Made by a program: the position numbers and the translations under genes | NCBI GenBank assembly: GCA_033439255.1 | Contig: CM065880.1 | Coordinates: forward strand, 2,790,001 to 2,854,000 | Direction of reading: 5' to 3' | Origin: Hericium rajendrae | Taxonomy: Eukaryota > Basidiomycota > Agaricomycetes > Russulales > Hericiaceae | Length of the DNA stretch: 64,000 nucleotides | Shown: in pieces, positions 12,948 through 49,353 of the stretch | How the letters are laid out: each line of letters opens with the position of its first letter | Numbering within the stretch: the first letter of the stretch is position 1 | Notes under the pieces: model-generated | The model's database searches: none | What the model was told of the DNA's origin: nothing | The model's input: the letters and a program-made list of their open reading frames with translations, nothing else

Positions 12948-13034
12948 TCCTTCGAACCGGGATCGAACCAGTGACCTTGAGATAACAATATTTCCAATTA
13001 CAGTCTCACGCTCTTCCAACTGAGCTATCGAAGG
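12948..13034 (-). tRNA. tRNA-Tyr (GTA) with intron
   Basis: On the minus strand the sequence folds as a full cloverleaf. Acceptor arms are CCTTCGA and TCGAAGG. The D arm is GCTC..GAGC. Anticodon stem TGAGA/TCTCA frames CTGTAA. The T arm is ACTGG-TTCGATC-CCGGT, containing box B GGTTCGATCC. The anticodon GTA is followed, after one purine, by an intron of about 14 nt (near TTGGAAATATTGTT), the position used in nuclear tRNA-Tyr genes. Mature length is 73 nt without the CCA end, which is not encoded. Confidence 0.93.
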
Positions 13035-15519: not shown

Positions 15520-15632
15520 TGCCCCAACCCAACCCCCTCCCCCCCCAAGCAAACATATACCGGCCAACCCAACCCCAACCCCAACCCCAACCCAACTGCC
15601 AACCCAACCGCCAACCCAACCGATCCCAACCT
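15520..15632 (+). repeat. CCAACCC-type simple repeat
   Basis: Imperfect tandem CCAACCC/CCAACC units fill about 110 bp and are strongly C-rich on plus and G-rich on minus. The unit differs from the TTAGGG telomere repeat usual in basidiomycetes. The frame through it (Pro/Thr-rich) is probably not a gene. Confidence 0.6.
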
Positions 15633-15864
15633 CAACCAGTGTGACCGCAAAAGCTACTTTGTGGTATGCAGTCTGGAGTCTATTAATGATGTGGCTTATT
15701 ACTCAACCAAATATCTCAGTTTTACTGTCAGTCCAGCTCAACAATAGCTAAAGCTAGCCTCAACATCATGGCTGAGGGCATGGCAGGCCGTAAGGATAGG
15801 GCCCGCGGGTCACATCCGGAAAAGAGAGCTGATGTAACTATGTGACATGCATGTCTCAGATGTC

Positions 15865-16002
15865 ACGTCCGCGTTTTTGTCGGACGTCCGCGTTTTTTGT
15901 CGGACGTCCGCGTTTTTTTGTCGGATGTCCACGTTCTTCGTCCGACGTCCGCGCTCGAGTCCGACCTGTCGTCCGCGTCCGACCAAAAACGCGGACAACC
16001 CG
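15865..16002 (+). repeat. Array of 19-21-bp hairpin units upstream of syntaxin
   Basis: Five head-to-tail units of the form ACGTCCGCG-T(n)-GTCGG span 15865-15965. The T tract grows stepwise through the first three (5, 6, 7 Ts). Units four and five are diverged. A last unit at about 15974-15997 is in the opposite orientation. Each unit can fold, with GTCCG pairing to CGGAC. The array ends about 190 bp before the syntaxin start codon, so it lies in the promoter or 5' leader. Confidence 0.7.
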
Positions 16003-22879: not shown

Positions 22880-22904
22880 TGACGAATACTCGACTGTGAT
22901 GTGG

Positions 22905-23622
22905 ACGGTCCGGGACCGGTCCAGCGCTAAAGTGCAAATGCTTTAGTTTGGTCCGGCCTTGTCTTCTCCGACTCTTCGCATGTCCTTAAGCTTGTTTGGC
23001 GATTTCTTCTTCTCGCTGAATGCTATATATCTAGTTCACCTAGGAAAATATTGTTTGGATGTGTATATCGTGCCTCGCGCGTCATGCATCATATTGAAGG
23101 TATGTTTGAGTTTCGCCCTCCCATCGTTCATTGACCGTGATCAGTTTTGTTACTTGCCATGCTACCATCTCGGGAACAAAGGTAACGTACATCTGCCTCC
23201 ATCTCACCATGCGTGGCATTGACCGCATTGCATAGTGATTCGAACATCCGCGAACGTGGGAAGTCTGCTTTGATGACTCGGAAGCTACAGCGCTTTTCCT
23301 TGTACTCGATCAGGCAGGTTCTTTATCATCGTGTAGGAGGAATATCACTGTCGAATATGGACTACTTTGTCAATCCGTCCTTCGAAGAACAAGGCTCGAT
23401 TTATTCAAAGCGAGGCAAATGCATCATGTCGTATGTAGCCCTTGTTCTATTTCTTGCTCGACGAAGTCACCACAGCATATAAAGCTTTGAGGCCTGCTTT
23501 GACCGCAGCCATTCAGTTCCAGCTCCTGGAGAGTCAGGTTAGTCATCATTCTTGCTTCACCCACCTTTAGATTGACGTGATCTCATTTGTGGCCTCACAG
23601 TGACCGCCCGTTCATTTCCAAC
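22905..23622 (+). promoter_or_regulatory. Conserved leader of gene A1
   Basis: About 700 bp ahead of A1 is conserved in all three modules. Splice-like words are shared, such as a GTATGT/GTAAGT donor, then CTCGGGAACAAAGG with a following GTAACG, and GAGAGTCAGGTTAGTC with an acceptor CACAG just before the start codon. The reading frames are not kept, so it is more likely a spliced 5' untranslated leader than protein-coding. Confidence 0.45.
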
Positions 23623-24265
23623 ATGTCGCGTCGAACGCACTTTCCTCCAAGTCCCGGATTGCCTCCGAGTCTCTACTCCGGAATGTCATTGCTTCAGATC
23701 AACCAGGCCGGCCCTGTCTCTGTCACAGAAGCATCTTTCCATTCGCGTACGTCTCAGCCCCAGAAGGCCTTGCTCAAAGGTCCCAAGACCGCCCGGCACC
23801 AGAGCAGGAAGACCGAGCACCCGAGCTCATCCGCTCCTTGGAAAGATCCGCGCAAGGCGGTGGCAGTTTCTGCTGGACACAAGCGCACGGTCAAGGACGA
23901 TGTTTTTTACAGAAACATTCAACACCTTTGGAGTCCCTTCCCTCCCGATGCCCGTCCGGTGACGCACAAGGAAAGGGACATTATGCTTTGTGCGGGTAGG
24001 ACATCGTCATTGTTCATCGGACAGGGTCGGATACTCATCATAATCCTATTCTATTCAAGTGACCGATCATGTCGTAGACAGACAGACTAAAGCCGACATC
24101 TTCTACAGCGGGTGTGAGCGGCGAGTATCTGTCCTTGAGGAACAATACGCAGCAGAGGCAGAAGGCCTGCGGGAACTTCGACAGGATGTGGAACGTCTTG
24201 GCCAGCGTTTGGATGAGAGAGATCGCCTCCGGCGAGCTCAATCGATAGCAACTCGACGGAGGTAA
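23623..24265 (+). CDS. Module gene A1, small protein with C-terminal coiled coil
   Basis: Exon 1 (about 124 codons) starts MSRRTHFPPSPGLPPSLYSG. It carries two blocks kept in all three A genes: PPSLYSGM.LLQINQAGP and QKALLKGPKTARHQ..K.EHPSS..PWKDPR. A phase-1 intron (GTAGGA..CAAG, about 23996-24058) leads to exon 2, a charged coiled coil (CERRVSVLEEQYAAEAEG and onward) that ends at 24265. The protein is about 190 residues. It has no known domain, signal peptide or membrane segment. Its 3' end faces that of B1 across about 250 bp. Exon 2 is much shorter than in A2 and barely alignable to it. Function is unknown; a dimer partner of the neighbouring B protein is my inference. Confidence 0.65.
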
Positions 24266-24512
24266 GTTCAGAAAGTTCCTACGTCTCCTAAATCCTGACG
24301 TAAAACCAAAAATAGTGATCAAGACAGGACAGATTAATCCAACCGTCGAGAATGTTAGATTACAACATAGGATATCATGATGGGTTCTTTAATCTCTAAC
24401 AGTTCTACTGATGCAGCCATACCACAGTGTAAAAGAAAGGACCCGTTTGTATGGGTAACATCAAATACTGCTATCCTAAGATGCCCCGTGGTCGTACGCT
24501 CGTTCTACGCTA

Positions 24513-25896
24513 CTATATTCTCTGATCATACGCTTTGATTGTTGCCCGTAACACTTCTATTTCTGCTATGCGTTGTCTGCCCCATTCTTCAAGCTCCCTA
24601 ATTCTGGCGTGCAGCGCTGCCTCTCGACTCGTCACATCTTTGAGCACCTTAGCAGCTGCGTAGTATGTGGTTAGAAAGCTACCAAGCGGCGCATGATAAG
24701 TAACTGACCATCTCGCATGCATTCCGGCTTTCCGTGTTCAGATCGCATGGATGGGTGTTTTTCTTCGTCAGGATACAATGCTGCACGGAGTTCATCATAT
24801 GCACCGTCGACAGTGTTGCGGTAAGCTTGCGCTCTATCCGCCTCCTTCTTCCGTTTCTCGAGTAGTTTTTCTTCCTCAAGAGATAATTTGGCTTTTCCCA
24901 TGCCCTTTGACCCGCCATTGGCGTCGTCCTGGACAGTAGCCCTCACCTTCGCGTCAGGGAGGGCGTCGCTGCCAGGCGATCTTGTCCTCTTCGATCCAGA
25001 AGACGAGCTCGGCTCCGGCCCCATGTCGACGATCCGAAACCGTTGCATCTGGTCCCTCGGAATCCCGTCCAGCTTCGACTGCCTAGCGGACTTTCTTGGT
25101 TTCTGCCGTTCCTTGTCACGCGGCTCGGTTGGCGGTGCCTCCATGTGCGGCGCCTGCGACGACGGTCGATGCCATTCACTCGGAATGGGCAGACGAGACT
25201 GGGCGGAGGCAGATGCCGCATGCCTGTAGATTCCTTGCAGAGGGACACTCGCCGGCGATGTGCCCCTTGGTGGGTACGTGCGCGTACCAGTATAGGGAGC
25301 CGAGAAACCCTGGTTTGGAGGTTGTGTACTAGCAGAGACAGCATTCCCGGTCATGAAAGGCGCGCCGTGCGCGGTATAGGTATAGCTTTCTTGTTGAAGA
25401 GGAAGAGGACCAGTTGAGGAGTATGGAGAGGACTGCAGAGGTGCCCTGCCGTACAAGCTGCTTGCGTGCTGGTGGATCATTGGTTGGTATGAAGAGTGTA
25501 GGGTCGGCAGCCCAGCGCCGGAGGCGGTTGGTGTCGCTTGACGGAAAGAATCGTAATTCCTGACTGGGTACGATTGGGTCACCGCAGATGGCTTCCGTTC
25601 CCACTTAGGCCGTCGCGGCGGCTGAGAAGGGTCGTCGAAGATACCCCAATTCGCGGGATGGTTCAGGTCGATGTCATCTGGGTTTGTGTCTGCCGGAGAT
25701 ACTGATTTGGCAATACGAGGACGAGGCTCATCATAGTGGTTCGTTACTGGGGCGTATGTTGAGCTTCGTCTTTCAGATGGTTAATATCTGCACAGTCAAG
25801 CCAGTTGAATCCGTTTGCCACTCACGAAGACTGGACATCACTACTTTGATTATACGTGTTATAAAGAGACGTCGTATGGATATTATGTTGTGACAT
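24513..25896 (-). CDS. Module gene B1, Ser/Pro-rich bHLH-zipper-like protein
   Basis: Three exons: 25826-25896, 24709-25769 and 24513-24655, about 424 residues by my reading. Start MSQHNIHTTSLYNTYNQSS is shared with B2. The long middle exon has DDIDLNHPANWGIFDDPSQP, then Ser/Pro/Tyr-rich sequence, KPRKSARQSKLDGIPRDQMQ, KRTRSPGSDALP, and a basic helix KRKKEADRAQAYRNTVDGAY continuing into DELRAALYPDEE. After a phase-1 intron the last exon encodes a second helix running into a coiled coil (AAKVLKDVTSREAALHARIR, then ELEE..). This order resembles basic-helix-loop-helix-zipper factors, although the basic region is not a textbook match. The donor of the last intron is GTCAGT, where B2 and B3 have GTGAG. 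A nuclear, DNA-binding role is inferred. Confidence 0.7.
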
Positions 25897-26081
25897 CTTC
25901 GGTCGTTTAGAATAGGCGTGATTCAATTATTGAGGTCGTTAGAAGTCGTAGTTGAGGTGATTAGAGCCGGTCTATGTAATAGTGGTCTTGTCGTGTCGTA
26001 GAATAGAGGCGAGCCAGCGCCGATGCTTGTAGTAGAATAGAATAGGCTGGAGGGAGAGCGGACGCGGAGGATAGTACGGAG

Positions 26082-26112
26082 CCTCAGGCTTGGACCTCGG
26101 CATTTAATAGCC
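26082..26112 (-). promoter_or_regulatory. Conserved core promoter of B1
   Basis: On minus the block GGCTATTAAATGCCGAGGTC, continuing CAAGCCTGAGGC, is kept almost unchanged ahead of B2 and slightly diverged ahead of B3. It holds a TATA-like TATTAAAT about 200 bp upstream of the start codon. Confidence 0.5.
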
Positions 26113-26498
26113 AACATCTCATAGCCTGCGTCCTGGAGAAACAAAAAGCAGGCTTTCGGTTCCATAAAAGCAACGAGTAAAAAGGACGGCTTACACTTAT
26201 GGTTATTGTAGCGTCGGGGCAGTAGAACGACGAGTACAGGGACTCACAATACATCAGGGCAGCGTGCCTCTGCACGGAATCGTCGACATCGCGATGTCTT
26301 AACAATTACGATGTCGTTAAGACTTGATTTTGTGTCACGGATTCGAAATCGAGCTTCTATCCTGCATAGCCAAAAACTGATGGTGGGTTGCTCGCGTGAA
26401 AGCGACAATTGCGAGAATTAGAGACCTGTTACCACTTCATGTCCATTGTCAGGAGTTGCTTTTTTTGTCGACATCAAGAAGGCATACGTTCGTGCATT

Positions 26499-26503
26499 TG
26501 GCA
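26499..26503. repeat. Target-site duplication, left
   Basis: TGGCA directly before the 5' LTR. The same five bases follow the 3' LTR at 32249-32253. Confidence 0.85.
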
Positions 26504-26883
26504 TGTTGGAATAACACGTGAGAGTACGTGTTGTTTACGCCGGGAGACGCGAGTCTCTCTTGTCCCGTTTTGGTTCTCTTTTATCTGCTTTCGGTTCTCA
26601 TCTGTCTGCTCTGTCTGCCTATGATATCATGTTCATCGTCATGTATTGTCCCGCCAGTCCCATCTTGTTCGTATATATACTGTACCGCTCTCGTCTACCT
26701 CCCTCAGTCGTTTTATCCCCCTTCACGACTGAGGTGAGTTGCTATTTTTCCTCTGCCTTGCGCCTGTATTACGTTACTTACGTATCTTACCCGATAGTCT
26801 CATCGGGATCGTTCAGGTGCATAATAAAGTCGTTTTATCCCCCTTCACGACTGAGTCTCATCGGGATCATTCAGTTTCTAACA
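26504..26883 (+). repeat. 5' LTR of the copia element
   Basis: 380 bp, TG..CA ends. It contains a hairpin (CTCAGTCG/CGACTGAG, 26703-26733) whose loop and 3' arm recur at about 26829-26854 within a short internal duplication. Confidence 0.93.
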
Positions 26884-26895
26884 GGTTATGGGCCC
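26884..26895 (+). other. Primer-binding site, initiator tRNA anticodon-arm type
   Basis: GGTTATGGGCCC directly follows the 5' LTR. Its complement, GGGCCCATAACC, matches the anticodon arm of initiator tRNA-Met (loop CAU flanked by GGGC and AACC). This is the half-tRNA priming type known from Drosophila copia and Ty5. Confidence 0.65.
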
Positions 26896-26971
26896 CGAGA
26901 GCTCGTGTTAAACCTCAGTATTACCGCGCTCTCAGAAACGTTACTACCTGAACTCCCACTTCCTCGTCACT

Positions 26972-29900
26972 ATGCCTGAAGACGATACCACCTGCAAAGG
27001 CGCCGACACGTCGAAGCAAGCTGCGAACAAAACCCCTCGTTCCCTTATCACTTCGTCCTCCGGCACCGTCTCGAACTTTACCTTGCTCCAGCGCTCATCG
27101 CCTCTTCCACCTGACCCACTATTCGCGAATCGCGTCGGCGCCGTCAAGTCTCCCCTCAGCTATAAGGATGAGACCGCTTTGCGTCAGGTCCTCATGTCCG
27201 TCAGCAGCAAGTTCCCTGCCGTTGAGAAGCTTACCGACACCAACTATGTCGACTGGGCTCGTGACTTCACCAGCAGCCTCGACCGTATCTTCTGCTGCGA
27301 CCACATCGACAGCACTCTCCTCGAGAAGCCAACCGACCCCGTCGACCTCTACAGCTGGGTCAAGCACGATCAATTGGTTGTTCAACTCATACTCTCGAGC
27401 ATCACCCCTGCTGAACGCGAGCGCGTCGAACAACACTGCCGCGGCTATACGTCGGCCGAGGAGCTCTGGGGCGGGATGCGCCGGCTCTATCTTCACTCTG
27501 GCATCGTCGCCCAGGTGAACTACCTCCGCCGCGCCTTCTCCCACGTCTTCCCGCCTACTGGTCTTTTTGGCCCCACTGCTCGTGAGCTTCGTATCGACGT
27601 TGAACGCCTCTACGCCGTGGGTGCCCCTACTGTGGAAGATATGTACTCTATTCTACTCTTGCAAGCTCTCGCTACGCATCATCCCACGAAGTACGACAAT
27701 CTTCAGTCCTCGGGCACTTTCGACTCCTTTACCATTTGCCAGCGCTTGGAAGGATACGACATCCAATACCGCGAGGACCTTCGTCGTGCTGCCCGCGCCT
27801 CTGCCTCCAAAGCTGGGACTGACGTCGCGGCGGCTGCTACGGCCGGCAAGCCGTCCCGCGATCGCACCCCATGCAAGCACTGCAATAAAACCAATCATCC
27901 TTCGGACAAATGTTGGCAGAAATTCGGCAAACCCGAGTGGCAGCAAATCAAGGAGCACGACCGCAAGGCCGCCCGTGGGGGCACTGGCTCTGGCTCCACT
28001 TCCGGCGCCAACTCCGGCACTAGCACTCCCGCCCAAGCTCACGCTACTATCGAGACCTGTGCCGCTGTCTCCTTCGCTGATATCGACGGCTACTTCTCTT
28101 GTGCCGCCGCTGATGAGTCTTGCTCTGTCGACTGGGCTGCCCACACTACCGTCTCGCCGCCTGCCTCGGGTGCCTACCATCTCGACAGCGCCTCTAGCTG
28201 CCATCTTACTCCGGATCGCCAGGACTTTGCCACCTTCACCGGCGTTCCCCCTCGTGCCATCCGTGGTATCAACGGCTCCAGTATCTACACTACAGGTGTT
28301 GGTGATGTCCACCTTCATCTTGGCGAGGGCCGACAACTCGTCATGCACGACGTTCTGTACGTTCCTAGCGCCGCGCTTCGCCTGATCTCGGTTGGCTGCC
28401 TCTGCGACAAAGGGTACATCGTCTCCTTCAACGGCCCCTCCACCTGCGCCATCTCTCAAGGCTCTGGTACTCGCAAGCTCGTTGCCACCGGTACTCGTCG
28501 TGCCGGTGCTCTCTACACGCTCGACGGCCGTACATCCTTACCCGCCGACACCGCTTGCCTTGCCCGTGCCGCTCCCTCGCTCGAGACTTGGCACCGTCGC
28601 CTCGGCCACATCAACATGGACTCTGTTGTCCATATGGCTCGTCACGGCCTTGCCTCAGGTATGCCCGTTGACCTATCTGTCCAACCCCCTATCTGTGAAC
28701 ACTGTGTTCTCGGTAAACAGGCCAAGACGAACATGCCTCGCGTGCGTGAAGGGCGCCGTGCTACTCGTTCGATGGAAATTGTGTTCACCGACTTGATGGG
28801 TCCCGTGATGCCAGAAACGATGGGAAAGAAATCCTACTCTCTTACGCTTATAGACGACTACGCCTCGATGTCCTTTGTCTTTCTTCTGCGTTTAAAATCC
28901 GAAGCTATTACCGCTTTCCGTTCCTGGCGTGCATGCGCTGAACGCTCTTCCGGTCACCCTCTTGGCATCTTTCGCACCGACAATGGCGGCGAATTTACTG
29001 CTGATGCCTTCGAAGCCTACCTCGCCACTGAAGGGATCACCCATCAAGTCTCAGCGCCTTACTCCTCGGCGCACATGGGTCGTGTCGAGCGCCTTCACTG
29101 TACCCTTATGGGTCATGCTCGCGCGATGCGTTCATCTGCGGCCCTTCCGGACGGTCTCTGGGGAGAGACCCTCCTTACGGCCTGCTATTTGCACAACCGC
29201 ACACCGACGCGCACCCTCCACAACCGCACGCCTTACGAAGCTTGGTTTGGTGTCAAGCCGGACCTTTCCTCTCTGCGTGAGTTTGGTTGTCGTGCTTTTG
29301 TTCTTGTCCAGAACGTGCACAACCCTAAAGCTCTTGATCGTTCGCTGGAGTGTGTATTGGTTGGCTACTCGCCGAATTCCAAGGCCTACCGCTGTTACCA
29401 TCGTGCGTCTCGGCGCATCATTGTTTCGCGAAACGTTTTCTTTATTGAGTCGCAGGACGCTATCTCGCGCCCACTTTTTCCGGGCCGCGTTGTCCCTTCT
29501 CTTGATTCTGATTCTGTTTCTCCTACTGTCTCGTCTTCGTCGAGTCACTCTTCTTTGCCTTCTTCTGTTTCTCCTGTGTCCTCTTTTCCTTCGCCCGCGT
29601 CTTCGACGCCCCTTGTTCCTGTCCCTCTGGACTCTGATCCTTTGGATCTTTCGTGCCTCGATCCTCTTCCGGATCCTGTTCCTGTGATGCCCGTCTCGGC
29701 AGAACCCGTTCCTTCTATTTCCTCGGAACCTGTTCCCTCTGCCTCTTTTGCGCCGGTTCCTTCTGTTTCCTCGGAACCTGCTCCTTCTGCTCCTTCGTTG
29801 CCTTTACCTACCATTGCGCTTCCGCCTTCTTTGTCTCCACCTCTTCGGCCTTCGCGTTCACGCATTCCTACCCCGAAGCAGGCTTTTATTTCTGGCCTTC

Positions 29901-31762
29901 CTGTGCCTATTTCTCGTGTTGATCGCGCCGTCGCTGAGTTGCGTGCTGCTGGCATGCGCCGCCTCGCTGACCGTCGCTCGGTCTCTAACCTTTGTGTTAC
30001 AGTCCCGAGTGCTGGCCCCTCCTCCCAGCCAGCCTCCGATCACCTTGCGCCACCTACTCCATCTACGGGTCCCTCTACTCCCTCGACTGGCGACTTCGAG
30101 CATGTCTCCCTACCCTCTCCCGCCGGCTCCGACTTTGAGACCATCCTGGCAACAATCGACGCCTCCGCCGACGAACCGCGCACCTGGTTGGAAGCTCAAG
30201 CCTCCCCGTTCGCTGCCGAATGGCGCCAAGCCTACATCGACGAGATTGCGTCCCTCCGTCAGCACAAGGTTTGGGAACTTGTTCCCCGCGCATCCATCCC
30301 GGCCGGCCGTCGTGTCGTCAAATGTCGACCCGTGTTCAAACTCAAACGCGACGCCGCCAATAACCCCGTACGTTTCAAAGCTCGTCTCGTTGCGAAAGGT
30401 TTCACCCAGGTACCGGGTGTTGATTTCCACGAGACCTACTCTCCCGTCGCTCGCCTCGAGTCACAACACCTCGCGTTGCATATCGGGGCGACTGAAGACT
30501 GGGAGATGGAACAGCTTGACGTCAAAACGGCCTTCCTCCATGGCATCCTCGAGGAGGAGGTGTACATGGAGCAGCCCCCGGGTTTTGAGGAACCCGGCAT
30601 GGAAGACTTCGTCTGTCGTCTCCTCAAGGGCATATATGGCCTCAAACAGGGCGGGCGCGCCTGGAACCTCCTGTTCGACTCTGTCATGCGCGAACTCGGC
30701 TACACACGCCTCGCTTGTGAGTGGTGCATTTACTATCGCACTCACTCCACGGGCCGCTCTATCATCGTCGTTCATGTGGACGACATGAATGTCGTCGCTG
30801 ACAGCAAGGACAAGATGGCCCGCGTCAAGCGCGAGCTCCGCTCTCACTTCGACATTGTCGAGCTCGGCCCCGTCAGCTGGCTTGTCGGCCTTGCCGTCTC
30901 TCGTGACCGCGCCGCCCGCACCGTCACTATCTCGCAGACGGCTCTTATCGATTCGGTTGTCACTCAGTTCGGTCTCGACGATGCCCATCCCGTCTCTACG
31001 CCTCTCGACCCCAACATCCGTCTCACCCACGCCGACTGCCCTACCGACGATACGTCTCGCGCCGACATGGTCTCCGTCCCATACCGTGAACTTATTGGGT
31101 CCCTCATGTACCTCGCCATCGGCACCCGACCCGACATCGCCCACGCTGTCCAACACCTCAGCCAGTTCAATTCCAATCCTGGCCGAAACCACTGGCAAGG
31201 CGCTAAACACGTCGCTCGGTACCTCAAAGGCACGCGCACCCTCGGTCTTGTCCTCGGTGGCACGCAACCGCTCGCCCTCTCCGGCTTCTCCGATGCCAGC
31301 TTCGGCGGTCAACCCGGTCCCACCGGGGCCCGACGCTCGATCAGCGGCTTCGTCTTCACCTTAGGCAGCGGCGCCATCTCCTGGAGCTCCAAACGACAAC
31401 CTGTGACCGCGCTCTCTACGTGCGAATCCGAGTATGCCGCAGCCGCCCACGCAGCGCGCGAGGCACTCTGGCTTCGCAACGTACTCACGCTCTTGGACTT
31501 TGCCCCTCCCGGCCCCGTCCCCATCGCGTGCGATAACCAAAGCGCCATTCGTCTTACTCACGAGCAATCTAGTCACTGCCGCTCCAAATATTTTGATCTC
31601 GACCATCACTTCCTCCGCGATCGCGTCGCCCTCGGTCACATCTCCGTCCACTACGTTCCGACCAACGACATGACGGCCGACATCCTCACGAAATCCCTTT
31701 CACGCGCGCCGCACGTCAAATTTTGCTCTGCCCTTGGTCTTGCACCTATAGCCGCACGATGA
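26972..31762 (+). CDS. Copia Gag-Pol polyprotein
   Basis: A single 1,596-codon frame that looks whole. Parts in order, with approximate residues: gag with a UBN2-like domain (60-260); CCHC zinc knuckle CKHCNKTNHPSDKC (~301); aspartic protease around YHLDSASSCHLT (~403); the GAG-pre-integrase block WHRRLGHINM (~540); integrase core with TDLMG and DNGGEF (~606-672) and the downstream Glu; a Ser/Pro-rich linker (~850-1010); reverse transcriptase with VHVDDMNV (~1268); RNase H with SGFSDASFGG and STCESEYAA (~1435-1490). The protease-integrase-RT-RNase H order is diagnostic of Ty1/copia. Gag and Pol in one frame is common in this family. Confidence 0.95.
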   Translation: MPEDDTTCKGADTSKQAANKTPRSLITSSSGTVSNFTLLQRSSPLPPDPLFANRVGAVKSPLSYKDETALRQVLMSVSSKFPAVEKLTDTNYVDWARDFTSSLDRIFCCDHIDSTLLEKPTDPVDLYSWVKHDQLVVQLILSSITPAERERVEQHCRGYTSAEELWGGMRRLYLHSGIVAQVNYLRRAFSHVFPPTGLFGPTARELRIDVERLYAVGAPTVEDMYSILLLQALATHHPTKYDNLQSSGTFDSFTICQRLEGYDIQYREDLRRAARASASKAGTDVAAAATAGKPSRDRTPCKHCNKTNHPSDKCWQKFGKPEWQQIKEHDRKAARGGTGSGSTSGANSGTSTPAQAHATIETCAAVSFADIDGYFSCAAADESCSVDWAAHTTVSPPASGAYHLDSASSCHLTPDRQDFATFTGVPPRAIRGINGSSIYTTGVGDVHLHLGEGRQLVMHDVLYVPSAALRLISVGCLCDKGYIVSFNGPSTCAISQGSGTRKLVATGTRRAGALYTLDGRTSLPADTACLARAAPSLETWHRRLGHINMDSVVHMARHGLASGMPVDLSVQPPICEHCVLGKQAKTNMPRVREGRRATRSMEIVFTDLMGPVMPETMGKKSYSLTLIDDYASMSFVFLLRLKSEAITAFRSWRACAERSSGHPLGIFRTDNGGEFTADAFEAYLATEGITHQVSAPYSSAHMGRVERLHCTLMGHARAMRSSAALPDGLWGETLLTACYLHNRTPTRTLHNRTPYEAWFGVKPDLSSLREFGCRAFVLVQNVHNPKALDRSLECVLVGYSPNSKAYRCYHRASRRIIVSRNVFFIESQDAISRPLFPGRVVPSLDSDSVSPTVSSSSSHSSLPSSVSPVSSFPSPASSTPLVPVPLDSDPLDLSCLDPLPDPVPVMPVSAEPVPSISSEPVPSASFAPVPSVSSEPAPSAPSLPLPTIALPPSLSPPLRPSRSRIPTPKQAFISGLPVPISRVDRAVAELRAAGMRRLADRRSVSNLCVTVPSAGPSSQPASDHLAPPTPSTGPSTPSTGDFEHVSLPSPAGSDFETILATIDASADEPRTWLEAQASPFAAEWRQAYIDEIASLRQHKVWELVPRASIPAGRRVVKCRPVFKLKRDAANNPVRFKARLVAKGFTQVPGVDFHETYSPVARLESQHLALHIGATEDWEMEQLDVKTAFLHGILEEEVYMEQPPGFEEPGMEDFVCRLLKGIYGLKQGGRAWNLLFDSVMRELGYTRLACEWCIYYRTHSTGRSIIVVHVDDMNVVADSKDKMARVKRELRSHFDIVELGPVSWLVGLAVSRDRAARTVTISQTALIDSVVTQFGLDDAHPVSTPLDPNIRLTHADCPTDDTSRADMVSVPYRELIGSLMYLAIGTRPDIAHAVQHLSQFNSNPGRNHWQGAKHVARYLKGTRTLGLVLGGTQPLALSGFSDASFGGQPGPTGARRSISGFVFTLGSGAISWSSKRQPVTALSTCESEYAAAAHAAREALWLRNVLTLLDFAPPGPVPIACDNQSAIRLTHEQSSHCRSKYFDLDHHFLRDRVALGHISVHYVPTNDMTADILTKSLSRAPHVKFCSALGLAPIAAR

Positions 31763-31859
31763 GGAGGAGATTGCCGCGTAGCGGCCTTGGATTCAGGAGG
31801 AGTTGAGGAGGAGTTGGGGAGGAGCTTCTCCTTCAGGAGGAGTCTTCGCGTCCCCCTGC

Positions 31860-31868
31860 GAGGAGGAG
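31860..31868 (+). other. Polypurine tract of the copia element
   Basis: GAGGAGGAG sits immediately before the 3' LTR. Similar GGAGGAG words recur several times between the stop codon and the LTR. Confidence 0.7.
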
Positions 31869-32248
31869 TGTTGGAATAACACGTGAGAGTACGTGTTGTT
31901 TACGCCGGGAGACGCGAGTCTCTCTTGTCCCGTTTTGGTTCTCTTTTATCTGCTTTCGGTTCTCATCTGTCTGCTCTGTCTGCCTATGATATCATGTTCA
32001 TCGTCATGTATTGTCCCGCCAGTCCCATCTTGTTCGTATATATACTGTACCGCTCTCGTCTACCTCCCTCAGTCGTTTTATCCCCCTTCACGACTGAGGT
32101 GAGTTGCTATTTTTCCTCTGCCTTGCGCCTGTATTACGTTACTTACGTATCTTACCCGATAGTCTCATCGGGATTGTTCAGGTGCATAATAAAGTCGTTT
32201 TATCCCCCTTCACGACTGAGTCTCATCGGGATCGTTCAGTTTCTAACA
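31869..32248 (+). repeat. 3' LTR of the copia element
   Basis: 380 bp, nearly identical to 26504-26883 and followed by the TGGCA duplication at 32249-32253. Confidence 0.93.
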
Positions 32249-32829
32249 TGGCACAGGTCTGGAGTTCAGGCGCTGGAGCCAGCATAACAATAAGCCCATC
32301 GCAATTTGCAATCAAGCGACGAAAGTGCAAGCCTCAACATGGCGTAGTGCCAGCTAGCTGGAGTGTTCTCTGCGTAACTACTTCTTGTTGATGAGACTGG
32401 CATTTTCGGCAGATACAGACGTGCATGTAGGCAAAGATGCTCCTCATCGGCAGTACACTGATTATAGATGAGTAGAAGTGCCACAAAAACAAACGAGTAA
32501 TTGCACACCAGAAATTCATGTAGCGACATGACTGTCCTTAAAACCATGGGCGACATCAGGCGTCGTATGTCGAAGGCCAATGACAGTTGGGCGTATTGGG
32601 CGCCGGCGTTTGACGCGTGCGCGTGCGAGGAGAAACATGCTCTCAGGTTCTTGTTCAAGAGCTAGCAAAGCTAGCCTTTACTAACTGTCTTGACATATAT
32701 CAGCATATCTTCACCAAGACGAATGAATTCGAATGATCTATGATGGGCGGTCGCAGACTGAGTAGCGCCAGAAAACCGTGTTGAATGTCGGTTGCGTCGA
32801 GTCGTTTCGCAGAGGTGACGGTAACTCAG

Positions 32830-33571
32830 ACGCGGACACCGGGTGACTGTTGTCCACGGCCCGGGGGGCCGGGACGGTCGATATACAGTAAGCGACGGGC
32901 GGCTGGTGCCGTCACTCATACAGTTCTTCTAGTTCGAAGTCGATTTCGTCTCTCCTACTTCGGCTGTTGACTACCCCTCTAGTTCACCGACGGCGCAGGT
33001 GTAAGTATGATATCTAGAAGGAATGGACCATGCATTGTTGTCTGATAATTATCACTGATGTCTATTTTAGTTTGAGCAGATCGTCCATGCGGCTACCACT
33101 GGCATCTCGGAAATGAAGGTAATGCACATATGCATCTGTTTCGCTATGCGTGGTGCTCATTTCGCACACAACATAACATCGGCCTTGTGTCACGAAGGCG
33201 GCAGGTCTGCTTTGATGAGACGGTCACGGCTTAAGACTTACGGCGTTTGTCGCTCCTTGTACTCGATCAGGCAGGCTCTTCATCGTCATGCAGGAGGAAT
33301 ATCACTGTTGAATGTGGACTACTTTGTCATGCTTTCTTTTGAAGAACAAGACTCGGCTAGATGCGAGGCGAATGCACTAAATTGTAGGTGGCCCTTGTTC
33401 TATATCTTGCTCAAAGAAGTCACCACAGCCTATAAAGCTTTGAAGCCTGCTTTGACCGTAGCCATTCAATTCTAGCTCCTGGAGAGCAAGGTTAGTCGTC
33501 TTTATTGCTTCGTCAATTTCCAAACTGACTCTCGTCAGTGGTCTTGCAGTGACCGCCCGTTCGTTTCCAAC
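32830..33571 (+). promoter_or_regulatory. Conserved leader of gene A2
   Basis: This is the counterpart of the A1 leader. GTAAGTATGA..TTTTAG looks like a complete intron at about 33002-33070, and GGTTAGTC..CTTGCAG another just before the start codon. Long identities with module 1 include TTGTACTCGATCAGGCAGG and GAAGTCACCACAGC.TATAAA. In-frame stops in the conserved part argue for an untranslated leader. Confidence 0.45.
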
Positions 33572-34335
33572 ATGTCGCACCGAACGCCCTTCCCCCCGAG
33601 TCCAGGCTTACCTCCGAGCATCTACTCCGGGATGTCATCGCTTCAGATAAGCCAGGCTGGACCTGGTTCTGTCGCAGGAACATCTCCTCATCCGCACACG
33701 TCTCAGTCCCAGAAAGCCTTACTCAAAGGGCCCAAGACTGCGCGGCATCAGAGCAGGAAGGGCGAGCACCCGAGCTCATTCGCTCCTTGGAAGGATCCGC
33801 GCCAGGCGGCTGCAGCGTCTTCGGGACACAAGCGCACATTGAAAGAAGATGTGTCTTACAGGCAGATTCAAGCATGCTGGTGGCCCTTCCCTCCCGACGC
33901 TCGAGCGACCACGCGGAAGGAAGACGACGTCATGGTCCGTGCGGGTACGCCATAGTCTCTGCCGCGGAATAAGGAAGATACTGACTCTATGTCTTTCTGC
34001 TTCTAGCGGCCAACCACATCCGACAGACGGAAGCGCTGGGTAATCAGATGTACGAGGAGAAATGGGGCAACGCTGATCGGCGAGTTTCTAAGCTGGAGGC
34101 TATTGTGGCTGTGCGGCAGGAGTCGGCACAGATTATCGCAGACATGCGTCGAGAACGGGAGAGCTACATGTCAGGTGAACTGCTTGAACTGATTGCAACG
34201 GCACCGGACGAGGAGATCCGACAAGACAACTTGAAGCTCCTGGAGTACTACCGCAGACGGAAGAGAGACGATGAGCTAGAGGACGAACGACGTGCGGCAC
34301 GAGTCGCTGCAAGGCAATCAGCTTCGCGGTTTTGA
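33572..34335 (+). CDS. Module gene A2, small protein with C-terminal coiled coil
   Basis: Start MSHRTPFPPSPGLPPSIYSG. The first exon is about 70 percent identical by eye to A1 and keeps the YSGMSSLQISQAGPGS and QKALLKGPKTARHQSRK blocks. A phase-1 intron (GTACGC..TTCTAG) is followed by AANHIRQTEALGNQMYEEKW and a long charged helix (ADRRVSKLEAIVAVRQESAQ, then IIADMRRERESYMSG..), ending RQSASRF at 34335. The protein is about 225 residues. The second exon is almost unrelated to that of A1 beyond RRVS.LE. The 3' end faces B2 across about 90 bp. Confidence 0.7.
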
Positions 34336-34426
34336 CTTACCTGCTACATTCATAAGTCTTAGCTCCTTAGCTCTTCAGTACTTCAGACACGCAATAAATA
34401 AAATTAACATGGCTGTAGTCAATCAA

Positions 34427-35886
34427 TTATCTTTGTCTTTCTTTTTCCGCAAGTTTCCTCTGCAATCTGGCATTTCTCTCTTGTAGGATTGCTATCTCTT
34501 GCTTGCTCTCCTGAAGTTGCGCATGGGCACTACTTTCCTCTGAAAATTCTTGGCTGGAAATGATTGCTTCCAACTCTCTTATCCTGGCATACAAGATAGC
34601 CTCCTTTTGTTGGCAGATGTCATTCAATGTCGAGGTCCTGATCCGCCTCGCAGCTATAGTCAACAGGTTAGATCATGGTCGGCCGTAAAGGGAGAGCAAC
34701 TCACCATCTTGCATACATTTCCGCTTTCCGTGGTCAGATCGCACGGACGGGCATTTTTCTTCGTCAGGATACAATGCCGCACGTAGTTCGTCATAGGCAC
34801 CATCGACGGTGTTGCGGTAAAGCCGCACTCTATCTGCCTCCTTCTTCCGCTTCTCGAGCAATTTCTCTTCTTCAAGAGATAATTTGGCCTCTCCCTTGCC
34901 CTTTGACCTGCCATTGGCGTCGTCCTGGACAATAGCCCTCACCTTCGCGTCAGGAAGGGCATCGCTGCCGGGCGATCTTGTCCTCTTCGATTTAGAAGAC
35001 GAGCTCGGCCCCGGCCCCATGTCGATTATCCGAAACCGTTGCATCTGGTCCCTCGGAATTCCGTCCAGCTTCGACTGCCTAGCGGGCTTTCTTGGTTTCT
35101 GCCGTTCCTTGTCACGCGACTCGGCTGGCGGCGCCTCCATGTGCGGCGCCTGCGACGACGGTTGATGCCACTCATCCGGGATGGGCAGACGAGACTGGGC
35201 GGAGGCAGATGCCGCATGCCTGGAGATTCCTTGCGAAGGGATGCTCGTCGGCACTGTGCCCCTTGATGGGTACGTGTGCGTACTAGCATAGGGAGCCGGA
35301 AAACATTGGTTTGGAGGTTGTGTACTAGCAGAGACAGCATTCCCGGTCATGAAAGGTGCCCCATGCGCAGTATAGGTGTAGCTTTCTTGGGGAAGAGGAA
35401 GAGGACCGGTTGATGAGTGCGAAGAGGACTTCAGAGGCGCCCTGCCGTACAAGCTGCTTGCGTGCCTGTCGAACATTGGTGGGTATGAAGAGTAAGGAGT
35501 CGGCAGTCCAGCATCGGAGACGGTTGGTGTGGTTTGACGTGACGAGTCGTAATTCTTGACGGGGTACGATTGGGTCGCCGCAGATGGCTTCCGTTCCCAC
35601 TGGGGCCGTCGCGGTGGCTGAGAAGGGTCGTCAAAGATACCCCAATTCGCGGGATGGTTCAGGTCGATGTCATCTGGGTTTGTGTCTGCTGAAGATAGTG
35701 ATTTGGCGACATGAGGCTGATTATAGTGGTTCGTTATTGGGGCGTATGTTAGGTTTCGTCTGTCAAATGGTCAGCTCTGCGTAATCAAACCAGATTGAAT
35801 TCGTTTGTAACTCACGAAGGTTGAACATTGCTACTTTGATTATAGGCGCCATAGACGGACGTTGTATGGACAGAACGTTGTGACAT
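34427..35886 (-). CDS. Module gene B2, Ser/Pro-rich bHLH-zipper-like protein
   Basis: The exon structure is the same as in B1, with start MSQRSVHTTSVYGAYNQSSN. The middle exon closely matches B1 (DDIDLNHPANWGIFDDPSQP, KLDGIPRDQMQRFRIIDMGP, KRTRSPGSDALP, KRKKEADRVRLYRNTVDGAY). The last exon is longer than in B1 and largely different: AARRIRTSTLNDICQQKEAI, then LYARIRELEA and a leucine/glutamine-rich coiled coil ending AEKERQR at 34427. Only the ARIRELE core is shared with B1. The last intron has a canonical GTGAGT donor. Role as for B1. Confidence 0.72.
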
Positions 35887-36068
35887 CTTCGGTCGTTGAG
35901 AATAGGCGTGATAAAAATATTGAGGTCGTCAGAAATCGTAGCTGAGATGATTAGAGCCGGTCTGTGTACAGCGATCTTGTCGTGTCGTAGAATAGAGGCG
36001 AGCCAGCGCCGATGTTTGTCGTAGAATAGAATAACCAGAGGGAGAGCGGATGTGTAGAATGGTACTGA

Positions 36069-36100
36069 GCCTCAGGCTTGGACCTCGGCATTTAATAGCC
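36069..36100 (-). promoter_or_regulatory. Conserved core promoter of B2
   Basis: This is a near-exact copy of the B1 block, including TATTAAAT, at the same distance (about 200 bp) from the B2 start codon. Confidence 0.5.
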
Positions 36101-37039
36101 AAAGTCCCATAGCCTGCATCCTGGAGAGACAAAAGGTAGGCTTTCGGTTTAAGAGGTAACGAATGGAAACGACGGCTCACAATTATGGTTATTGTAGCCT
36201 CCGGACAGTAAAGCGATGGCTACGGTGCTCACAATATGCGAGGGCCAGGCACCTGAACATATAGTTGTCGGCATCGTGATACCTAAACAATTGCAATGTT
36301 GATAAGACTTGTTGTTGTGAACTCGAAATCAAGCTTCTGTACTGCATAGTCAAAGACTGATGGTGAGCCACTCACGCGAAATTGACAATTGCGCTTAAAG
36401 AGATTAGTAACCCCTGCAAATCAATCGTCAGCTCTTGATCTTGTTATCTTCAGCATCAAGAAGACGTACGTTCGTTGATTGGGCACAGCTGTGGAGCTCA
36501 GGCGCTCGGATCAGCGAAACAATAGTCCATCGCAATGCACCGACAAAAGCTTGCGACTACAAAACCACTGACCTTAGTTGAATGATCCCTTAAGAACCGA
36601 TGCTAATAAATGAGGGAGCTAAGCATGTGCAGGCCAAGTATGTCAGCGACGGCGATGCTCGTCAGCCTCTCGCTGTGATGCAGTGACTACAGAACGACAG
36701 GGTTCTTCGGAGAGATTCAATTGATTAAGTACAGAAAAAAAAGAGATGGCGAAGACGAAGGGCAGAAAATTTCCTCTAAATGAGGCGCACCAGTTGCGAC
36801 ATAACTTGCATGAGCTGCCAGTGCCAATCTGTGCCGATGTCGGGCGTCGGGCGTCGGGCGTCAAATTTGGTGGGTATCTGTCGTGCAGAAGAGTCCGGGC
36901 GCTTGATCATGGAAGTACCTTGAGAAACATTCTCGAAGTGAACGATGTGTCTGCACAAAGTTAGAGACAAATGAGCTGTGTCTGACTGTTCTGACATGTT
37001 TCGAAGTTGGAGGAATGAACGAGTTGAAGTGACAGTACT

Positions 37040-37772
37040 GACTGGACCGTGGTGCGTCCGTGGTCCCGGACCGCCCCGGCTGCATAGCTTCCGTGCGCGC
37101 TATTCGGGTTCCGGAATTGTTCAATTGAGTCGATTTCGTCCGTTTTCACGAACATTTCACTGGATTCCAAGCTCATAGATAAAGTCTACACCGGCAAAGC
37201 TACTGAAGTATGTCTTTGGTAAGTACCGCAAGTCTCTATTCGAGTTTCACCCGTAACCGCACCTGATTTTCTTCAGCTTTGATGATACTGTACTGCCGTA
37301 CGTCGGGAACAAAGGCAATCCACGCTCGCCCCTACCTGCCGCGCGCAGTGGTGCTTAACGCGCACGGTTTAGGCATTGGCCTTGTACTGAACTCGAGCGT
37401 AGCTAGTCCAATCCGACTTTGTCAAGAGCAGTGATGGCGCTCGGTCGCTCCTTGTTCTCCTTGAGGCAGGTGCCCTCGATGCAGGAGAAACGTTACTTTC
37501 GAATGTGGACGACCGGTTCACGCCGTTATTCATATGACCACTCCTGATACAAAGCGAAGTATAAGGGTGGCGAAAGCGCTGTTCTTGTTCTCTTTGTTCT
37601 ATCCTTGCTCGACGATGGTGGTCATCCACTATAAGACTCTGAAAGCGATGGCCGATGCCATTCATTTCTAGCTCCTGGTGAGCACGGTAAGTCTATGCTG
37701 TCTACTTGATTTATCCCTCGATGACGTGAAGTCGTTTGTGATCCAGTAGCGTCCCGCCTGTCCACCTCCACC
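37040..37772 (+). promoter_or_regulatory. Conserved leader of gene A3
   Basis: Homologous to the other A leaders but more diverged. GGTAAGTACC..TCTTCAG (about 37221-37277) and the GGTAAGTC..ATCCAG join before the start codon look like introns. The word GTCGGGAACAAAGG is kept. Confidence 0.4.
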
Positions 37773-38490
37773 ATGTCCCACCCCCACCGGATGCCTGTCC
37801 CTTCGAGTCCCGAGATACCTCCGAGTCTGTACTCGGGGATGTCGTCTCTCCAGATAAACCAGGTTGGTCCTGGCTCTAACGCAGGATCCTCATATCATTC
37901 CCCTCCGTTTCAACCACAGAAAGCTTTGCTCAAAGGCCCGAAGGCCGCGCGACACCAGGGCAGGAAGAACGAGCACCCAAGCTCGTCTGTTCCTTGGAGA
38001 GATCCACGCGAGGCAGCGGCGGCGTCTGCTACACGCAGGCGCTCTTTGAAAGACGATGCATCCTTCAGGCAAGGTCAGACGATGTGGACTCCATTTCCTC
38101 CCGACACTCGTCCGACCACACGCGACGAGGGCGTGGTTGTGATGCGTACATGTATGTTTCAGTGCTCAACGTTCGGAGAAGACGAACGAGATACTGATCC
38201 ATTTTCTACCAGTGGTCGAGCATTTGAAAGCACAGGAGGATGCATGCTTTAGGGACGCGAAACTTGAGCTGCGTTCTATCAAGGATGTGGTCTCGAACAA
38301 CGAACAACGAACAGATGAATTCGTAGAAATCATCAACCAGGACCATCGTGACCTGGAACCTGCCTTTCACAAGCTGCTTCAAATGTCGCCAAATGAAGAG
38401 TTTCGACAAGCATGCCAGAAAGCCATGAACACTTACTACCAAAATCGACGAGACATGGAGTTGAGAGCAGGACATCATTCCAGAGTCTAG
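37773..38490 (+). CDS. Module gene A3, small protein with C-terminal coiled coil
   Basis: Start MSHPHRMPVPSSPEIPPSLY. The two A-family blocks remain (YSGMSSLQINQVGPGS, QKALLKGPKAARHQGRK), followed by PWRDPREAAAAS and RRRSLKDDASFR. A phase-1 intron (GTATGT..CTACCAG) leads to VVEHLKAQEDACFRDAKLEL and a helical tail that ends at 38490. FHKLLQMSPNEEFRQACQKA in A3 matches LLELIATAPDEEIRQDNLKL in A2, so the far C-terminus is related although the coiled coil between is not. About 205 residues. Convergent with B3, 130 bp apart. Confidence 0.7.
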
Positions 38491-38620
38491 GATAGGGAGG
38501 GATACCGCTTAGGACTATGTAAATCGTACGGCGTGGAGTATTAAATTATGTACATGTCATTACATCTCGTCTGGACAGGGACTACACCTACTTCTCACCT
38601 TTGCGACAAAGCTTTCACGC

Positions 38621-40082
38621 CTAATTGCCTTTGGCCGCCAGAGACCTTTGCAAATAGTCCACCAGTTCGTGTAATGCACTGGTATCCTGCCGATGTGCAG
38701 CTACGCTAGAGAGCCATTTCCCTTCGTATTCACTGACACGTTCCTTCAGAACTCTTATTTCGGCTTGTAACTTAGCTTCCTCTCGCTGCCAGACGGAATT
38801 CGGTGTCGAGTTTTGGAGTCGATCGATGGCTATCAGAATATGATGATTTTGTTAGGTCATGAAACCATGATAGACAATGAATATGGGCTCACCATCTCGA
38901 ATGGATCTGATCTTTGCATGATTAGGGGCGGCCAGCTTGGAATTTTCTTCATTAGGGTATAAGAGTGCGCGGAGCTCAGCATAGAGATCGTCGAGCTGAT
39001 CTCGGTAAGCTTTCACTCTGTCGGCCTCCTTCTTCCGCTTCGCGACTACCTCCCTGTCATCGAGCGACAAGCCAGCTTTGCTCTTGCCTTTTCTCGCAGG
39101 AGGAAGGGCGTCGCTGCCCGGCGATCTTGTCCGCTTCGTTCCAGACGAGCTCGGTCCCGGCCCTGAGTGCACAACGCGGAATCGTTGCATCTGATCTTTA
39201 GGGATACCATCGAGTTTCGAGCTTCTGTGGGATTTACGGGGCTTCTGCTGTTCCTTGTCATGAGTCTTGGCACTGGTAGAAGGTCCCAAATCCTGCGCCG
39301 CAGGCTGGGAGGAGTAATAGGAAGAAGACGAAACTGGCTGCGCCGACGGTTGATACCATTCCTTCGGAAGAAGCTGAGGAGATGGAACATGCGCATGCGT
39401 TCTGGAGGAAATCATATGTCTAGAGCTTCCGTCCTGTGAAGAGATAGCAGCCGAAGGGACAGACCTCGACGATCGCGCATGCGGATTGACGTAGGACATC
39501 GGTTGAGTTGCGGGATGAGAACTGAATTGCAGAATCGTCGCATTCGTTGCAGGCGCTTCGTGACCAGGACGGCTAGGGCCCATCCGCGGGGCAGATCCGC
39601 TCGAATATTCCGCGGACTGGGTGACGGCACTCGTGTAAGGATAGTTCGCGGAGTTTTCATGTGATGAGTCGTATGCATAGTATGAGATCGACGGCTGGGT
39701 GGTTTCGGCAGTGGGAATGCCCTGGTACGAAGCATTATAATGATATGGTTGTGCAGAGCCTTGAGTTGCCGTCGCCGGGTCAGTGGCCCATCCGAGATGC
39801 TGGGTGCCCGGCTGCGTGGAGTTGCCGTATGCACCCCAATTCGAGGGATTATGGTTGTCAACTTGGTTGCTGTCGGGTATCAAGGACGGTCTATTATTGT
39901 GCGAGCTGTAGTGGCTCGTTGCCGGGATATATGATGAGTTGCGTCTTGGGAACAAAGGGGCTCAATTTCACAGCTAGGCAGACGGATATCCTTGAGACTC
40001 ACGGATAATATGCATTGTTACTATATCCATTATATGCGTCATAGTCAGATGCTGGCGGTGTGCATGTTGAACGTGGAGACAT
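38621..40082 (-). CDS. Module gene B3, Ser/Pro-rich bHLH-zipper-like protein
   Basis: Three exons as in B1 and B2. Exon 1 begins MSPRSTCTPPASDYDAYNGY. The middle exon is diverged in its Ser/Tyr-rich part but keeps NPSNWGAYG, KPRKSHRSSKLDGIPKDQMQ, KRTRSPGSDALPP and the helix KRKKEADRVKAYRDQLDDLY running on to AELRALLYPNEE. The phase-1 intron after IRDG has a GTGAGC donor. The last exon encodes AIDRLQNSTPNSVWQREAKL and a coiled coil with LVDYLQRSLAAKGN at the end. Alternative upstream in-frame ATGs exist, but homology to B1 and B2 supports 40082. Confidence 0.72.
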
Positions 40083-40245
40083 CGTTGATCGTGACTGATA
40101 GGCGTGAATTGATTGTTGAAATCGTAAGGTCACGTAGACGGTAAGATAAGAACCAGTACGTGCAGAATACCGTAGATTAGAGGCGTTCCAGCGCCGGACG
40201 TCCCAGTAGACTGATGGGCAGTAGCGAGTATTAGGATTGTGACTG

Positions 40246-40278
40246 AACCTCAGACTTGGACCTTGGTATTTAACCGCC
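40246..40278 (-). promoter_or_regulatory. Conserved core promoter of B3
   Basis: GGCGGTTAAATACCAAGGTC, a diverged copy of the B1 and B2 promoter block, lies about 180 bp before the B3 start. Confidence 0.4.
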
Positions 40279-40730
40279 AGCATCCTGTAGCAAGTATCCG
40301 GGAAAGACAATAACGGCAACTTTGAAGGCCATATTGTGAGCAGATGGAAACGGGAAGACGACTCACAATTATGGATGTTATAGCCTCGGACAAGTCAGAG
40401 CAACAGGGGGTACGGAGTCGCAACACATGAAGGCCCAGCGCTCCGGCAAGTATACGTCGAGATCATTCATTCTAAACAATTACGATGTGTGAGAGTAGAC
40501 TTTGTGTTGCAAACTCGAAGTCGAGCTTCTCTCCCGCATAGCCATAGTCTGATGGCAGGTTGCTCCTGGCGCGAAAGGTGACAATTACAAACCTGTGGGA
40601 TATTTGTAACTAAAGCTTTTGTTTTCAACAGAAATAAGAAAGAGTACGTTCGTTCGTCATGATCCATCTAGCACAGCTCAGGAAGTCAGGCGCTCAGGTC
40701 AACATAACAATAAGGCATTCACAACATACT

Positions 40731-48896: not shown

Positions 48897-49351
48897 TGGT
48901 GCGGGACACCTAGTCACCGCTACTTTTGTACAACCCAAATAGGAAGGTGACATTTCACCCGATTTCTTATTCCTCTTGCAAAAGTGCTCCGTTTGAGGGG
49001 AGGAACAATCCTACAAGAGCATTTGTCGCTGCGCTCAAAACTGACGGAGATAATGATTCCGGCGGGCCGGATTTGGCCACCGTATGTAAGCATATACCAT
49101 ATATGGTAATACCACACGTGATACTTGCCTAACTGGGACGGCGCCTAACAGACACCTCCTGCTCGAGACAAGCCATTCGAAGGGCAGATTGCGGCGAAAT
49201 GGGTCGGAATCAGCATCAGCCCGCATCCTGCAGCTCACAGATGCATTTTGAGGCAAAATCGGCCATATTTGAGGTACAATTTGATTTTTTTTTTCGGCGG
49301 GGCCGATTTGGCCACTGTCCAAATGTAGCGGGGACTAGGTGTCCCGCACCA
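48897..49351. mobile_element. MITE-like DNA element with TA target duplication
   Basis: A 455-bp non-coding element with terminal inverted repeats of about 27 bp (TGGTGCGGGACACCTAGTC and onward), one mismatch between the arms, flanked on both sides by TA (48895-48896, 49352-49353). The TA duplication and short TIRs suggest a non-autonomous Tc1/mariner-type element. The word GATTTGGCCAC occurs twice inside, at about 49071 and 49307. No transposase frame. Confidence 0.8.
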
Positions 49352-49353
49352 TA

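Follow-up and report, generated by a model that had tools for sequence, protein, structure and literature searches.

We report three tandem modules of a convergent gene pair, here called A and B, in a 64,000-nucleotide stretch of Hericium rajendrae (assembly GCA_033439255.1, contig CM065880.1, positions 2,790,001 to 2,854,000, forward strand), referred to below as the window. When modules 1 and 2 are compared, the C-terminal halves of both A and B are encoded inside a single block that runs from an intron of A into an intron of B, and the divergence between the modules is concentrated in this block. This concentration is the main new result of the analysis and had not been noticed in an earlier note, made by a model from the letters of the window, which compared the pairs with recognition loci. 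We tentatively favour the reading that this is a locus of paired regulator genes with a specificity cassette that can be exchanged, working in the manner of the HD1/HD2 mating-type loci or the paired het loci and belonging to neither.

One intron-bounded block holds the variable ends of both genes

A maximal-segment scan of modules 1 and 2 placed the block at 24009..24698 of module 1 (unstranded), where it starts within A1 intron 1, spans A1 exon 2, the intergenic DNA and B1 exon 3, and ends within B1 intron 2. The cassettes of module 2 (33958..34694) and module 3 (38157..38887), also unstranded, have their edges taken from the comparison with module 1. Identity between modules 1 and 2 is 39% within the block (756 columns, gap columns being scored as mismatches) and 85% outside it (2004 columns). 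The block scores 300.7 against a maximum of 18.8 in 300 column shuffles, and a separate run with wider flanks gave 83% identity outside the block and a shuffle maximum of 27.5 (1000 column shuffles); as such shuffles ignore the natural clustering of differences, they exclude only a chance run. Segmentation of modules 1 and 3 returned nearly the same edges (24001-24703; score 72.1 against a shuffle maximum of 29.5), and that of modules 2 and 3 returned a shorter block with nearly the same left edge (33950-34575; 43.4 against 22.6). Whichever two modules are compared, the left edge falls in A intron 1. On the right, the edge lies in B intron 2 for modules 1-2 and 1-3, and in B exon 3 for modules 2-3, where some similarity persists. 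The first intron of A and the second of B have phase 1 in each of the three modules, and the block could therefore be exchanged as a unit with both reading frames preserved.

The blocks are deeply diverged relatives. Aligned alone and globally, they have identities of 0.389 (1-2), 0.390 (1-3) and 0.425 (2-3), which exceed all 30 shuffles in each pair (maxima 0.380, 0.371 and 0.364; means near 30%), so they are related rather than unrelated DNA and their identity is not at chance level. The best local DNA match between blocks beats the shuffles for modules 2-3 only (26.5 bits against a maximum of 23.8). The block of module 1 is as diverged from that of module 2 as from that of module 3, although the flanks of modules 1 and 2 are not.

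The same contrast is seen at sites that do not alter the proteins. For modules 1 and 2, the two parts of B that precede exon 3 show synonymous divergences of 0.25 and 0.27, and A exon 1 one of 0.62, as against 2.7 or saturation in the second exon of A and the third of B (block versus flanks, Fisher p 9e-18 from rounded counts). Noncoding mismatches between these modules number 190/966 in the flanks and 148/274 in the block, and within gene B they number 12/55 in intron 1 and 25/52 in intron 2 (p 0.005). Because divergence in the block is as deep in introns and intergenic DNA as at synonymous sites, the block has an older history of its own, different from that of its surroundings, and does not reflect merely fast protein evolution. 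Either the old blocks persisted and only the flanks became alike, or a block came in by exchange; each course requires recombination near the two introns. The constant parts of modules 1 and 2 show ratios of nonsynonymous to synonymous divergence of 0.24, 0.44 and 0.25, and this purifying selection argues that both genes have been kept functional in these two modules.

Layout of the modules and predicted genes

Homology among the modules is far above chance (blastn E 0.0 for modules 1 and 2; to 5e-49 and 2e-53 with module 3), and the window yielded no additional copy of A or B. The A genes lie on the plus strand and are modelled with two exons: A1 at 23623..24265 (exons 23623-23995 and 24060-24265; 192 amino acids), A2 at 33572..34335 (33572-33944 and 34007-34335; 233) and A3 at 37773..38490 (37773-38151 and 38213-38490; 218). 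The B genes lie on the minus strand and are modelled with three: B1 at 24513..25896 (exons 25896-25826, 25769-24709 and 24655-24513; 424 amino acids), B2 at 34427..35886 (35886-35816, 35759-34705 and 34653-34427; 450) and B3 at 38621..40082 (40082-40003, 39944-38893 and 38829-38621; 446). Across the three modules the predicted products thus span 192-233 amino acids for A and 424-450 for B. All six hand-built frames are open from ATG to stop, with predicted GT..AG introns of 51-64 bases whose phases are the same in the three copies (phase 1 for the first intron of A, phases 2 and 1 for the two of B). An alternative three-exon reading of A1 would end at 24337; the two-exon form agrees with A2 and A3.

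The facing stop codons of A and B are 247 bp (module 1), 91 bp (module 2) and 130 bp (module 3) apart. The earlier note had described three convergent modules with a kept exon structure and 90-250 bp between gene ends, and the three convergent pairs, six intact frames, matching intron phases and measured spacings bear this out. Its module length of about 3.7 kb holds for module 1 only when a Copia element is subtracted. The conserved leaders that it reported are found from 23297, 33254 and 37444 in modules 1, 2 and 3, where clear homology begins; the part of module 1 upstream of this, from 22880 to 23297, aligns weakly.

Conservation and predicted folds of the A and B proteins

Over the three pairwise comparisons, the first 112 codons of A are 64-76% identical and the tail 20-39%, and in B the identity is 61-88% between residue 240 and the end of exon 2, and 37-43% in the tail. 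The N-terminal half of B is 79% identical between modules 1 and 2 and 31-34% identical in amino acids to that of module 3; since it has diverged this far from module 3, the contrast between constant and variable parts is, for this half, one of modules 1 and 2. The first 55% of B is made up 53-57% of S, P, T, Q, Y and G.

No Pfam family was matched by A1, A2, A3, B1 or B2 when the whole proteins were searched at E<=1. B3 gave a sub-threshold match to HLH over helix 1 (E 0.051 for the whole protein; E 0.0025 for the C-terminal piece, with 18.0 bits against a cut-off of 20.7) and one to bHLH_IRO3 (E 0.017; 15.8 bits, cut-off 27). A further sub-threshold match of B3, to DUF6887, outscores HLH (E 0.0047 whole, 0.00048 for the piece), and we take it and the remaining weak Pfam matches to be helix-like noise. 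The C-terminal piece of B3 had five matches in a sequence search of PDB (best E 0.18), none of them a basic helix-loop-helix (bHLH) protein, and NCBIfam returned sub-threshold matches only. By comparison with the bHLH consensus, the usual Glu/Arg that contact the E-box seem to be absent from the basic region of B. The term bHLH-zipper-like, applied to B in the earlier note, finds a weak counterpart in the HLH match of B3; it does not extend to B1 and B2, which are unmatched, and the B3 match lies below the Pfam cut-off.

Given the isolated tail exons of A2 and B2 with three-row alignments, AlphaFold2 modelled the A2 tail as two long helices (2-63 and 68-107; predicted local distance difference test score, pLDDT, 87.0) and the B2 tail as a single helix (2-73; pLDDT 94.8). 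Heptad periodicity is significant in only two of the six A and B tails, and a coiled-coil label, which the earlier note gave to A, is plausible for them at most. When the A2 tail model was searched for similar folds, no match appeared at E<=0.001 and 111 at E<=10.

A candidate recognition regulator

Under the reading that we favour, each module would represent one specificity of a recognition regulator made of two proteins. In B, a Ser/Pro-rich N-terminal half, probably serving in activation, would be followed by a basic stretch that begins in a bHLH-like way and by a helix at the C-terminus; in A, a conserved N-terminal half would be followed by a helical C-terminal half. DNA binding and activation would fall to the constant part of B, with A as the partner. 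The helical tails of the two may form the dimerisation surfaces, and each module would pass on its A and B together as a matched pair. The combination of A and B would then decide whether B is active, probably through an A of one specificity meeting a B of another. This would follow the HD1/HD2 system, in which the active dimer forms only between partners of different specificities, and under such logic a mixed nucleus or cytoplasm would become detectable. A scheme in which the matched pair is active and the mismatched pair inert would fit the anatomy equally well. Recombination or gene conversion may keep the constant halves and the promoters alike without erasing old specificities, and the process being switched might be, for instance, nuclear pairing or somatic incompatibility.

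Because divergence is concentrated in a block common to both gene ends, the anatomy backs a recognition-like reading more strongly than the earlier note could know. Its suggestion of a paired, multi-copy family of apparent regulators resembling recognition loci is supported in part, in anatomy and in the confinement of divergence.

Several observations weigh against the favoured reading. Three paralogous modules of one haplotype here stand in for alleles, the divergence is that between paralogues, and three pairs in a single haplotype can also arise through plain duplication. The cassette blocks are not unrelated sequences, their global identity being above 30 of 30 shuffles in each pair, and in comparison with module 3 the N-terminal half of B (31-34%) is no better conserved than the tail (38-43%). 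The HLH match is confined to one of three B proteins and lies below the cut-off, and a profile search of solved structures returned two matches (E 0.5 and 0.58), neither a bHLH protein. The AlphaFold2 models are of two isolated tails from three-row alignments, with no dimer, and the heptad test reached p<0.05 in two of six tails (A1 0.015 and B3 0.029; others 0.09-0.44).

Comparison with known systems places the locus near several and within none. With HD1/HD2 (MAT-A) it shares two adjacent, unlike regulator genes and several diverged copies per locus. Published HD1/HD2 pairs are described with N-terminal dimerisation and specificity domains, likely with coiled coils, and with putative activation regions rich in proline (PMC8970355, PMC8305134); the homeodomain mating proteins of Trichaptum have coiled coils tied to heterodimerisation as well as such proline-rich regions (PMC8970355). 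A and B differ in that they have neither a homeodomain nor Mating_N, are convergent where HD1 and HD2 are divergent, and have their variable region at the C-terminus rather than the N-terminus. In Pfam, a homeodomain was matched by none of the six proteins (E<=1) and none of their six C-terminal pieces (E<=10), and Mating_N had no match in A or B. A neighbourhood scan with Pfam of 40 pieces of open reading frames (ORFs), 39 neighbouring pieces and the Copia frame, in which small exons were partly covered, likewise gave no match to a homeodomain, STE3 or peptidase M3 (mip1), so that no mip1 was found near A and B among these pieces. The scan bears on mip1 and not on beta-fg, the other flanking gene of HD1/HD2 loci, which is not known to us to have a Pfam model. 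The absence of a homeodomain remarked on in the earlier note is confirmed for A, B and the 40 pieces.

With paired het loci the likeness lies in adjacent, different genes with divergent versions, which here are paralogous modules rather than alleles. In Podospora het-B (Bh/Bp), two adjacent different genes have highly divergent, co-inherited versions (PMC10890737), and in the het genes of Aspergillus fumigatus balanced divergence is limited to a narrow stretch between similar flanks (PMC11138114). A and B differ from het-B in that Pfam matched no HET domain, PII-like protein or other known cell-death domain in them, and in that only part of each gene is variable. The sub-threshold HLH and bHLH_IRO3 matches of B3 and the single long helix predicted for the B2 tail recall bHLH-zipper factors; the B3 matches are nevertheless below cut-off, and B1 and B2 have none.

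It would be a further step, and on balance an unlikely one, to regard the modules as a basidiomycete recognition locus unlike the homeodomain and pheromone/receptor loci, in which two unrelated regulators would share one intron-bounded, exchangeable cassette for their matching tails, so that new matched specificities would move between modules and alleles in one piece. If true, this would be a simple way to hold two interacting surfaces matched, both being in one cassette between phase-1 introns. The locus could be one of the somatic-incompatibility loci of mushrooms. A 2021 paper calls the genetics of basidiomycete somatic incompatibility unclear and its mechanisms completely unknown (PMC8229728), and the old variable ends of two adjacent regulators offer a concrete candidate locus.

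Alternative explanations

Nearly as likely as the regulator with an exchangeable cassette is a set of tandem duplicates of a lineage-specific regulator pair with no recognition function, in which ancient copies diverged, their fast-evolving ends above all, and modules 1 and 2 were afterwards made alike in both flanks by gene conversion that could not cross the block. Such a history explains the contrast between these modules without polymorphism. Conversion requires homology, so the block itself would be a barrier, and it does retain the level of divergence seen with module 3; that the N-terminal half of B differs from module 3 as much as the tail does, and that coiled-coil periodicity is weak, are also as expected. 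However, conversion must then have run up to the block from both flanks and ended within an intron of each gene, and the edges between modules 1 and 3 are nearly the same although their flanks have not been homogenised. Nor does duplication account for why both gene ends, together with the intervening introns and intergenic DNA, are the most diverged parts.

The tight linkage, multiple copies and variable ends would also suit a selfish or defensive two-component pair, such as a poison and its antidote, with the variable tails as matching parts. We consider this improbable, since A and B look nuclear or regulatory from their Ser/Pro-rich and basic parts and neither matched a toxin-like family in Pfam.

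Still less probable is that A and B are cargo or a coding part of a transposable element in tandem. Repeated modules are typical of elements, and a Ty1/copia long terminal repeat (LTR) retrotransposon of 5.7 kb does lie within the locus (26504..32248, plus strand), in the closing block of module 1. Its LTRs of 380 bp differ by two mismatches, it is flanked by a 5-bp target duplication (TGGCA), and its single open frame matches the gag-pre-integrase, integrase core, SH3-like, beta-barrel and RVT_2 families of Pfam, with a gag match below cut-off. This element is full-length, a young, recent insertion with its own target duplication, separate from the A/B modules and not part of their system. 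Pfam found no transposase or reverse transcriptase in A or B, and no other A/B copy lies within the window; we reject the modules as a transposon.

A diverged HD1/HD2 homeodomain mating locus, suggested by the paired genes, Pro-rich and helical parts and multiple copies, is rejected with near certainty, since none of the six proteins matched a homeodomain or Mating_N, the genes are convergent rather than divergent, and the 40 ORF pieces (small exons partly covered) gave no match to mip1, homeodomain or STE3.

Leaders, promoters and closing blocks

The leader and promoter regions of A lie on the plus strand at 23297..23622 (A1; TATAAA 145 bases before the coding start), 33254..33571 (A2; TATAAA at 141 bases) and 37444..37772 (A3; TATAAG at 143 bases). 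The B promoters, which coincide with the closing blocks, lie on the minus strand at 25897..26503 (B1; TATTAAAT 213 bases before the coding start; interrupted by the Copia element), 35887..36485 (B2; TATTAAAT at 211 bases) and 40083..40586 (B3; GTTAAATA at 192 bases). All three copies thus keep TATA-like boxes 141-145 bases before the start of A and 192-213 bases before that of B.

We further note stop-free stretches on the plus strand of the leaders, of 93 codons in module 1 (23200-23622), 107 in module 2 (33150-33571) and 68 in module 3. Mismatches between modules 1 and 2 at 23290-23430 divide 14/10/3 among the three phases, and there are 8 gaps. By our count most of these mismatches fall on second codon positions of the frame common to modules 1 and 2, which does not resemble a coding sequence. 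The pattern gives no support to a third gene in the leaders, although a short upstream frame is possible. A GC-rich motif upstream of A (CCGGGACSGTC, <=2 mismatches) is not enriched across the window, with 46 matches against 38.9 expected, a number reached in 15 of 100 shuffles.

Relatives, neighbouring genes and minor features

Searches for relatives covered viral and prokaryotic collections and hence say little about a fungal pair. The B alignment gave 106 pattern matches in viral contigs and 57 in prokaryotic genome contigs, and the A alignment 7 and 103, none of which was confirmed. No published account of such a gene pair was found among the matches listed, as judged by title and the opening of the abstract; subscription papers fall mostly outside this scope, so absence from print is not claimed.

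The Pfam scan of the neighbourhood identified protein kinase pieces near 5.8-6.6 kb and 55.2-56.1 kb, HVSL at 11.3-12.5 kb, an aldo/keto reductase at 21.2-22.4 kb, glutamate dehydrogenase pieces at 42.5-45.7 kb, a C2H2 zinc finger below cut-off at 53.2-54.2 kb and a peptidase M16 at 57-58.6 kb. An open frame on the minus strand at 1455-2621 runs over 21/30-base tandem repeats, is glutamine-rich and repetitive, and has only sub-threshold Pfam matches. A tRNA gene lies at 12948-13034 on the minus strand (Rfam, 55.8 bits), its anticodon left unresolved by ARAGORN, perhaps owing to an intron. Short tandem arrays occur at 15564-15637 and 15865-15953, with a CCAAC-type unit of 5 bases and a 20-base unit, and a 43-base inverted repeat (48890-48932 and 49316-49358; 91% identical, about 380 bases apart) is possibly a small non-autonomous element.

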